Shown here: positions 17,088 to 20,596 of the stretch, in pieces
How the letters are laid out: every line of letters begins with the position of its first letter
Numbering within the stretch: the stretch's first letter is position 1
Origin: an uncultured Burkholderiales bacterium
Lineage (GTDB): Bacteria > Pseudomonadota > Gammaproteobacteria > Burkholderiales > Casimicrobiaceae
Assembly (NCBI GenBank): GCA_937944385.1
Contig: CALDYQ010000070.1
Location: forward strand, 1 to 47,498
DNA length: 47,498 nucleotides
Direction: 5' to 3'
Program-made: the position numbers and the translations under genes
Notes under the pieces: model-generated
What the model was told of the DNA's origin: nothing
What the model saw: the letters and a program-made list of their open reading frames with translations, nothing else
The model's database searches: none

Positions 17088-17124
17088 AAAAAGAAAAACC
17101 CGTGCGCACATTGTGCGTCACGGG
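17088..17124 (-). terminator. Rho-independent terminator of sRNA candidate / aceA
   Basis: On the minus strand CCCGTG-ACGCAC-AAT-GTGCG-CACGGG forms a long hairpin (17124-17099, one bulged base). It is followed by a T-tract interrupted once by C (complement of A-run 17088-17098). There is no T-run on the plus strand, so it works leftward. Confidence 0.9.
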
Positions 17125-17164
17125 CTGGCATCCGCCGAACGTTTCCTCCTCCTTGAGGAATACC
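17088..17164 (-). ncRNA. Candidate small RNA with GGA-loop hairpins (CsrA/RsmA-binding type)
   Basis: A strong promoter (17197-17170) and a strong terminator (17124-17088) bracket about 77 nt with no ORF. The predicted RNA has a hairpin at 17160-17143 with a 6-bp stem UUCCUC/GAGGAA and the hexaloop AAGGAG. That loop fits the A-N-G-G-A-N preferred by CsrA/RsmA. A second small hairpin at 17136-17127 shows GGAU between GGC and GCC, and another GGA lies close to the 5' end. It sits 105 bp downstream of the aceA stop on the same strand. It is independent of aceA if the promoter is real; otherwise the terminator simply ends the aceA mRNA. No known sRNA was recognised. Confidence 0.5.
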
Positions 17165-17169
17165 GTCCG

Positions 17170-17197
17170 ATTATAAGGTCTTATAGAAGAGTTGCAA
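17170..17197 (-). promoter_or_regulatory. Sigma-70 promoter with palindrome, driving sRNA candidate
   Basis: On the minus strand -35 TTGCAA (17197-17192) and a perfect -10 TATAAT (17175-17170) are 16 bp apart. A perfect 14-bp palindrome TATAAGGTCTTATA (17172-17185) overlaps the -10 box and spacer and could be an operator. Confidence 0.6.
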
Positions 17198-17268: not shown

Positions 17269-18588
<1,320 letters not shown>

Positions 18589-18888
18589 GCTCTTTTCCTT
18601 CCGAGAGTTCGGTTGACGAAATATCCGACATCAACCAAGCTCCCCCGCGTTGCTTCAGGTGGACCGAAACGCACGACGAGAGTCGCTTGTTGTGCTGTGC
18701 AGCATACATCAAAACCCGACAAGACTTATATAAGACTCGTGCGCATTCCTTTGTAAATCAGACACTTAAGCATTGCTCACGTGAATTTCTACGTCACGGC
18801 CACGTTTTCACATTGCGGAAACCATATCCACGTAAGGAAATGCAAGAACCACCGGCGTATTTCTGGCGCCGGCGGGAGGCTAGAAATG
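18589..18888. other. aceA upstream region
   Basis: This 300-bp non-coding stretch holds the aceA leader (about 130 nt), the proposed aceA promoter and, further right, the end of the fccAB terminator region. Sequence around 18690-18780 is clearly more A+T-rich than the flanking genes. A GCTGTGCAGC palindrome lies in the leader near 18695. Confidence 0.6.
18728..18757 (-). promoter_or_regulatory. Candidate aceA promoter
   Basis: On the minus strand TTTACA (18757-18752) and TTATAT (18733-18728) are spaced 18 bp. The -10 lies in the palindrome CTTATATAAG (18725-18734). The same 8-mer, TATAAGAC, occurs in the sRNA promoter at 17170-17197. Confidence 0.4.
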
Positions 18889-18937: not shown

Positions 18938-20224
18938 TCAGGTCAGCATGTCCGCCCAGACGTTCCGTGCCCAGGAGATCGCGTAGACGCCTTCTAGTTC
19001 GTTCTGCGCAGCTGAGAGGCCGCCGCTGCCCGGGATCGTCACCATCGTCTTCTTCTCAGGGTCGTAGCGATGCACACTGGCGACGTGAACGACGTTCTTG
19101 TCGTCGACGAAGCTGTAGCAGGTGTTCGCGTAGACCGGGTTCTCGTTGACCGGCTGCCCCGTGAGGAGGGCGACGATGGCCGAGGCGCAGGTCTTGCCAT
19201 GCTGGTTCGCCATGTGACCCGACTTCGGCATGCCAGGCGCGATCTGGAGCGAGTCGCCCAGGATATGCACATTCGGCACGGCGGTCGATTCGAAGGTCAA
19301 CCAATTGACGAGACACCAGCGCTTGCTCGAGTTGTTCAAGCCGTGTTGCATGGCCAAGTCGCCGCAGCGCATCGGCGGCAGGACGTTCAGCACGTCTGCC
19401 TTGAACTCGCCCCCGAACGACAGGACGACCGAATTGCTGCGCGCGTCGACGTCCGAGATTTCCTGGTTGTTACGGTACTCGACGATGCCCTTGTAGTCCT
19501 CGTTCCAGGCCTTCATGAACAGGCCCTTCTTCGATTGCACGTCCTCGTTCGCATCGAGGATGACCACTTTCGACTTGGGCTTGCGCGTCTTGAAGTACCA
19601 AGCGACCTGGCAAGCACGCTCATAGGGACCCGGGGGACAGCGATAGGGTGCGCGCGGGATGTGGATGGCGTAGACCCCCCCATCGGGCATCGCCTCGAGC
19701 TGGCGGCGAAGCAGCATGGTCTCGGGGCCGGCTTTCCAGGCCGCAGGCACGCGCGACTTCGCTTCGCCTGTTGCGAGCCCGGGCAGGCTCTCGTACATGA
19801 AGTCGATGCCGGGCGAGAGCACGAGACGGTCGTAGGGCAGCTTCGTGCCGTCTGCGAGCGAGACGACCTTGGTTCCCGGGTCGAAACCGGTCACCTCACC
19901 ACGAACGCGGCGAATGCCGTACTTGTCGAGGCCACTGTAGGACGACGTGATGAACGCCATGTCCTTCGAGCCGCCCACCACAAGGTTCGAGATCGGGCAG
20001 GAGATGAAGTTTTCGTTGCGCTCGACGAGCGTCACGTCGATGGCGCCGTTACTCCAAAGGGAGATGTATTTCGCGGCCGTAGCCCCGCCCCATCCGCCAC
20101 CGACGACGACGACCTTGGGTTTGGCGGCGCCGCCGATGGTGGCGCAGCCCGAGAGACCGACCGCACCGACCGCGGACAAAGCGCCGGCAGCCTTGATGAA
20201 TTCACGACGATTGAACTGATTCAT
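18938..20224 (-). CDS. fccB: Flavocytochrome c sulfide dehydrogenase, flavoprotein subunit
   Basis: FccB oxidises sulfide in the periplasm and passes electrons to its cytochrome partner. The 428-residue product opens with a Tat signal (RREFIKAAG) and an LSGC that could also be read as a lipobox. The FAD-binding motif VVVVGGGWGGATAA (about 38-51) follows. FISCPISN with Cys76 corresponds to the cysteine that carries covalent FAD in Allochromatium FccB. Other cysteines (Cys196 in YRCPPGP, Cys287, Cys346) include the likely redox disulfide. The C-terminal MPKSGHMANQHGKTCA block is typical. It follows fccA by 24 bp. Confidence 0.92.
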   Translation of the reverse strand: MNQFNRREFIKAAGALSAVGAVGLSGCATIGGAAKPKVVVVGGGWGGATAAKYISLWSNGAIDVTLVERNENFISCPISNLVVGGSKDMAFITSSYSGLDKYGIRRVRGEVTGFDPGTKVVSLADGTKLPYDRLVLSPGIDFMYESLPGLATGEAKSRVPAAWKAGPETMLLRRQLEAMPDGGVYAIHIPRAPYRCPPGPYERACQVAWYFKTRKPKSKVVILDANEDVQSKKGLFMKAWNEDYKGIVEYRNNQEISDVDARSNSVVLSFGGEFKADVLNVLPPMRCGDLAMQHGLNNSSKRWCLVNWLTFESTAVPNVHILGDSLQIAPGMPKSGHMANQHGKTCASAIVALLTGQPVNENPVYANTCYSFVDDKNVVHVASVHRYDPEKKTMVTIPGSGGLSAAQNELEGVYAISWARNVWADMLT

Positions 20225-20248
20225 GTGTGCATCCTTCTTGACTAGCGA

Positions 20249-20596
20249 TCAGCGGGCAGGCAGCTTTTCGAAATACGCGGCCAGCGCATCGATCTGCTGA
20301 TCGGACAGCCCTTTGGCGAGCTGATGCATGATCGTCGCCTGCAGTTGCCCCGCCTTGTAGGCGCGCATCTTCTGCGCCGTGGATGCCGCCGGTTGCCCGG
20401 CAAGCGACGGCACCTCGGCGACGCTCCGGCCGTTGGTGCCGTGGCAGTTCGCACAGGTCGAGGCGAGATCGCGAACGGCCGTCGGCGAAAGCGGCGCTGC
20501 CGGCGCGGGTGCGGGCGCAGGAGCCTGGGCGAGCACGGTCGACCCTAGCCCCAATCCGACGGCGAGACCCAGCGCTCGCACGGTACCTTTCATCAT
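20249..20596 (-). CDS. fccA: Monohaem cytochrome c subunit FccA-like
   Basis: The 115-residue product has a signal peptide cut near AQA (about 24) and an Ala-Pro linker. It carries a single haem site CANCH (Cys48, Cys51, His52), with Met90 in TIMHQLAKGLS as the likely sixth ligand. This is the small class I cytochrome type that partners FccB in monohaem flavocytochrome c; purple sulfur bacteria use a dihaem form. AGGAGG precedes the ATG-ATG start; the first ATG is used here. It is the first gene of the fccAB unit. Confidence 0.9.
   Translation of the reverse strand: MMKGTVRALGLAVGLGLGSTVLAQAPAPAPAPAAPLSPTAVRDLASTCANCHGTNGRSVAEVPSLAGQPAASTAQKMRAYKAGQLQATIMHQLAKGLSDQQIDALAAYFEKLPAR

Follow-up and report, generated by a model that had tools for sequence, protein, structure and literature searches.

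A genus-restricted small RNA gene downstream of aceA with a predicted SdhR-type operator in its promoter

Introduction

The window analysed here is a stretch of 47,498 nucleotides from an uncultured Burkholderiales bacterium of the family Casimicrobiaceae (GenBank assembly GCA_937944385.1, contig CALDYQ010000070.1, positions 1 to 47,498). On its minus strand, next to aceA, the glyoxylate-shunt gene for isocitrate lyase, positions 17088–17197 contain a promoter, a 5′ hairpin with the hexaloop AAGGAG and an intrinsic terminator. The locus raises two questions: whether it is a small RNA (sRNA) gene in its own right, and with which partner its RNA would act. An earlier reading of the sequence alone (the sequence-only reading) had proposed a stand-alone sRNA, linked to carbon metabolism, that binds CsrA/RsmA proteins through several GGA motifs. 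The coordinates of the features are collected in Table 1.

Table 1. Features at the locus in window coordinates
Feature	Position	Strand	Basis or remark
-35 box TTGCAA	17192..17197	(-)	TTG kept in most relatives
SdhR-like dyad operator CTCTTCTATAAGAC (about GTCTTNTANANGAC) in promoter spacer	17178..17191	(-)	12/14 matches to the SdhR core GTCTTATATAAGAC
-10 box TATAAT	17170..17175	(-)	Near-invariant among relatives
Small RNA gene	17088..17164	(-)	Start predicted at 17163/17164; end in T tract
5′ hairpin TTCCTC-AAGGAG-GAGGAA	17143..17160	(-)	Folding and alignment of genus copies
Intrinsic terminator, GC stem-loop and T tract	17088..17125	(-)	Folding; stem kept in relatives, both sides changed
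aceA, isocitrate lyase	17269..18588	(-)	Pfam ICL PF00463, E = 3e-106; constant upstream neighbour of the sRNA gene
SdhR-like site GTCTTATATAAGTC upstream of aceA	18723..18736	(-)	Window genome and G016 only

Promoter, hairpin and terminator

The promoter (TTGCAA-16-TATAAT) and the strong terminator described in the sequence-only reading were both confirmed on the minus strand and are conserved. A count of such σ70-like promoters gave 1 site in 1.4 kb, against 0.2 expected from shuffles. Folding from the start site reproduced the hairpin as it had been described, with a 6 bp stem (TTCCTC/GAGGAA) closed by the hexaloop AAGGAG, and the GC stem of the terminator is followed by the tail TTTTTCTTTTT. 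The 79 nt RNA is more stable on folding than its shuffles (z = −3.8). The gene in the window is matched by the covariance model with 48.9 bits (E = 9e-12).

Further upstream on the same strand, beyond aceA, positions 18938–20596 of the window hold two open reading frames that by translation resemble the flavoprotein of flavocytochrome c sulfide dehydrogenase and a small cytochrome c.

Conservation and fold within the genus

The genus was sampled with 17 genomes, including that of the window (G000). aceA was detected in 16 of the 17, and in each of these 16 the sRNA element lies directly downstream of it on the same strand; the conserved copy downstream of aceA for which the sequence-only reading had advised a search is thus present. 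The exception without an sRNA copy, G004, is an 87% complete genome in which aceA was also not detected, and in G009 the sRNA gene is split by a contig break. The covariance model found one strong copy per genome (48.9–89.8 bits; next best ∼27), all 16 copies coming from one genus whose related genomes are non-independent samples. Species differ in the gene that lies 3′ of the sRNA, which is convergent in most cases, so that the constant neighbour is aceA. A leader of the downstream gene was rejected for the same reason.

Identity is 94% in the RNA head and 66–74% in the promoter, compared with ∼20–35% in the flanks. The core AGGAGGAGG, which comprises the loop and 3′ arm of the 5′ hairpin (17153–17145 in the window), is invariant in 16/16 aligned sequences. 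In both main helices ∼95–97% of the alignment cells are paired, and covariation in the alignment exceeds that in shuffles and slid controls; within the same alignment, changes occur on both sides of the terminator stem and on one side only of the 5′ helix. When the sequence of G016, the most divergent member for this helix, was folded by itself, it restored the stem in a longer form. The fold is consistent across the genus copies and an intrinsic terminator follows the hairpin in every one of them. Because an identical arrangement of promoter, hairpin and terminator follows aceA wherever that gene was found in the genus, the element is far beyond chance and is confirmed, at the level of comparative sequence analysis, as a real stand-alone sRNA gene. 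The proposal of such a gene with a link to carbon metabolism is supported.

Two other explanations bear on this assignment. The position directly downstream of aceA and the strong terminator would also suit a mere terminator or the 3′ end of the aceA mRNA, but each copy keeps a promoter of its own at fixed spacing, and conservation peaks in the 5′ hairpin rather than in the terminator; we consider this explanation highly improbable. The inverted repeat just 3′ of the start might instead be a protein-binding DNA operator, with the RNA as a by-product. At the DNA level the hairpin indeed forms a dyad as well, with a longer one of its own in G016; however, a T/G position that can pair only as G–U in RNA is retained by 13 of the 14 distinct sequences, the loop length is altered in G016 and an intrinsic terminator lies 3′ in every case. 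An operator at this place appears very unlikely.

Distribution outside the genus and novelty

No relative of the sRNA was found outside the genus, either in a family search covering 64 genomes or in an order search covering 399 genomes with a structure model and a promoter-plus-head sequence model. The best extra-genus matches were unrelated terminator look-alikes or short purine runs. An exact-pattern search of 84,980 genomes returned genus members together with scattered matches in unrelated phyla, and no Rfam family matched the sRNA at E values up to 5. By these searches the sRNA is a new, previously unlisted and genus-restricted family that is absent from Rfam. Two published candidates were rejected: ncS35 of B. 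cenocepacia, which is known from literature on isocitrate lyase and sRNAs, lies at a different locus and has a length of 166 nt, and the Bordetella S17/toxic sRNA family is not indicated by any Rfam match for the window sRNA.

Absence of CsrA

The display of GGA in a hexaloop favours a sponge for CsrA/RsmA, as the sequence-only reading had proposed. A search with PF02599 (CsrA), for which E. coli, B. subtilis and T. maritima served as positive controls, found the gene in 0/40 genomes (G000–G039, from 23 genera of the order), including the window's own. The exact ANGGAN loop is seen only in the window and in its nearest relative, G016, but the other genus members show GAGGAG instead, so that most relatives have a G at position −2. 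A GGAU loop (GGC-GGAU-GCC) is present in the window but is not found in relatives, and the third GGA, described as lying near the 5′ end of the RNA, is upstream of the predicted start and would not be transcribed. Conservation of the GGA loops thus extends to one GGA-bearing loop and not to the other two motifs.

Because CsrA is absent from these bacteria, the sRNA cannot act via CsrA, and CsrA/RsmA binding is the part of the earlier proposal that found no support; with a single conserved GGA loop in addition, the probability of a CsrA sponge is close to nil, barring an unrelated protein of like specificity. The sRNA resembles the CsrA-titrating RNAs CsrB/CsrC and RsmX/Y/Z in being small, in carrying GGA in a hairpin loop and in its link to carbon metabolism, but differs from them in having one conserved GGA loop, no CsrA in the genome and no Rfam match. 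It was rejected as a member of this class, for which CsrA in the same genome and several conserved A(N)GGA loops are defining features. With CsrA rejected as partner, the invariant AGGAGGAGG needs another one.

A putative SdhR operator in the promoter spacer

The published SdhR motif is TCTTATGTCTTATATAAGACATAAGA (PMC4494728), and its core, GTCTTATATAAGAC, was used for scoring here. The promoter spacers of relatives contain a 14 bp dyad at the place of the window's dyad (GTCTTATAGATGAC, GTCCTCTAGAAGAC, GTCATGTACATGAC and others). Scored against GTCTTATATAAGAC at this fixed position, the operators reach a mean of 10.5/14 (background 3.2), and a score of at least 11 is found in 11/16 copies compared with 9e-5 of background positions, the cases being non-independent because of the relatedness of the 16 genomes. 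Only weak matches are present in G007, G009 and G015, and G013 has lost the match. In G002 the operator is altered in sequence yet perfectly palindromic, suggesting selection on the symmetry itself.

Within the genus the full SdhR motif has mdh on one side and a GntR-UTRA gene on the other, with sdhC coming next where the locus extends so far. This GntR-UTRA (sdhR) gene with the motif was identified in G000, G005, G010 and G015, with sdhC next to it in G015. The SdhR core also precedes acs and an acyl-CoA ligase gene in the genus, and icd in the window genome. Genus members other than the two with a site before aceA (Table 1) have no SdhR-like site there and carry different sequence elements instead.

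The operator core GTCTTATATAAGAC is shared with the known betaproteobacterial regulon of SdhR, a HutC-type GntR regulator, and the regulator gene of the genus stands beside mdh and sdhC. The sRNA site of the genus departs from that regulon in its frequent degeneracy and in its location within the promoter spacer. The best reading of these matches is that the sRNA promoter carries a predicted SdhR operator and that the sRNA belongs to a putative SdhR (TCA/glyoxylate) regulon. A literature search found no sRNA of the SdhR regulon.

Proposed mode of action

The interpretation that we favour, and hold with moderate confidence, is that of a stand-alone genus-specific sRNA with an SdhR-type operator that acts post-transcriptionally, likely by base pairing and probably with Hfq. 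An RNA of ∼67–80 nt would be transcribed from its own σ70 promoter, which an SdhR-type (GntR/HutC) regulator bound to the spacer operator between −35 and −10 would repress. Since the operator fills the promoter spacer, release of the regulator would allow the sRNA to be made along with TCA/glyoxylate genes. The RNA would then act in trans, most likely by pairing of the Shine–Dalgarno-like AGGAGGAGG with CCUCC-bearing RNA, and the putative partners would be mRNA leaders or anti-Shine–Dalgarno sRNAs. Hfq would probably assist; an Hfq gene is present in 16/17 genus genomes, the window's own included, and the sRNA gene has the own promoter and the intrinsic terminator with U tract that are traits of Hfq-dependent sRNAs. 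Sequence-level support is provided by the gene, its conservation, the promoter, the operator match, the fold, the absence of CsrA and the presence of Hfq and sdhR genes.

Duplex scores for 30 leaders (aceA, mdh, sdhR, sdhC, icd, acs and acyl-CoA ligase) gave no consistent mRNA target. The sequence CCCTCC in mdh leaders was rejected as a target site; it occurs in G010, G001 and G015 and is missing in G000, G002, G005 and G012. The favoured interpretation is further weakened by the poor or lost operator matches in four genomes, by the restriction of the sRNA to one genus and by the location of half of the invariant core inside the hairpin stem.

A further explanation of the Shine–Dalgarno-like hairpin is that it binds the anti-Shine–Dalgarno tail of the 16S rRNA as a ribosome decoy, or that a leader peptide uses it as its ribosome site. 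Its AAGGAGG or AGGAGG is a match to the anti-Shine–Dalgarno sequence, and the duplex with the 16S tail amounts to −13 to −15.5 kcal/mol; on the other hand, no start codon is conserved at the right distance and half of the invariant core AGGAGGAGG is sequestered in the hairpin stem. Little credence is given to this explanation, and a leader peptide was rejected because no start codon is conserved beyond the core.

A special case of the base-pairing interpretation is a decoy or sponge for other sRNAs, in which the Shine–Dalgarno-like loop would bait anti-Shine–Dalgarno sRNAs with CUCCUCC loops, for example anti-hemB RNA. The SdhR-switched RNA would soak these up and thereby free TCA/glyoxylate mRNAs as SdhR derepresses transcription. 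The idea is suggested by the Shine–Dalgarno-like core, the sRNAs with complementary loops in the same genomes and the precedent of Neisseria, in which anti-Shine–Dalgarno sRNAs repress TCA genes (PMC5362039). The anti-hemB RNA (RF02837), with the loop UUCCUCCC or CUCCUCCC, occurs in the window's own genome and has matches in 10/17 genus genomes, and further CCUCC-loop hairpins adjoin terminators. However, the duplex of the sRNA with its partner beats 95% of shuffled partners in only 2/9 genomes, anti-hemB RNA was not detected in 7/17 genus genomes, and complementarity between purine and pyrimidine runs is cheap. The decoy seems unlikely. On account of the 2/9 duplex result and the lack of a consistent leader target, the base-pairing sRNA of the putative SdhR regulon was kept as the main interpretation, with the decoy as an option within it.

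The sibling sRNAs NmsR/NgncR of Neisseria share with the window sRNA a betaproteobacterial origin, a tie to TCA-cycle control and a loop related to the Shine–Dalgarno sequence, but their UC-rich loops are anti-Shine–Dalgarno whereas that of the window sRNA is the opposite. Anti-hemB RNA is likewise short and betaproteobacterial, carries a hairpin at its 5′ end together with an intrinsic terminator and occurs in the same genomes; its loop CUCCUCCC is the complement of the window sRNA core.

In the window's own genome the anti-hemB RNA is located at L133:1468-1555 (contig C11:27722-27809), where it scores above the gathering score and has the loop UUUUCCUCCC. Another conserved, unannotated sRNA-like gene was observed at ∼1430–1547 of L128, L131 and L132 (genomes G001, G006 and G015). 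It has a hairpin with the loop CCCCUCCUCC followed by a terminator, lies 3′ of a lysine-rich coding region and has no Rfam match.

Significance

An Rfam family could be built from the 16 sequences. The absence of CsrA from 40 genomes of 23 genera bears on every CsrA-based claim in this lineage, and the sRNA shows that CsrA cannot be deduced from a GGA hexaloop by itself. In a lineage with Hfq and without CsrA, the invariant AGGAGGAGG offers a clear, testable case for an RNA that mimics the Shine–Dalgarno sequence. If the proposed mode of action is true, the control that SdhR exerts over betaproteobacterial central carbon metabolism would gain an RNA arm.
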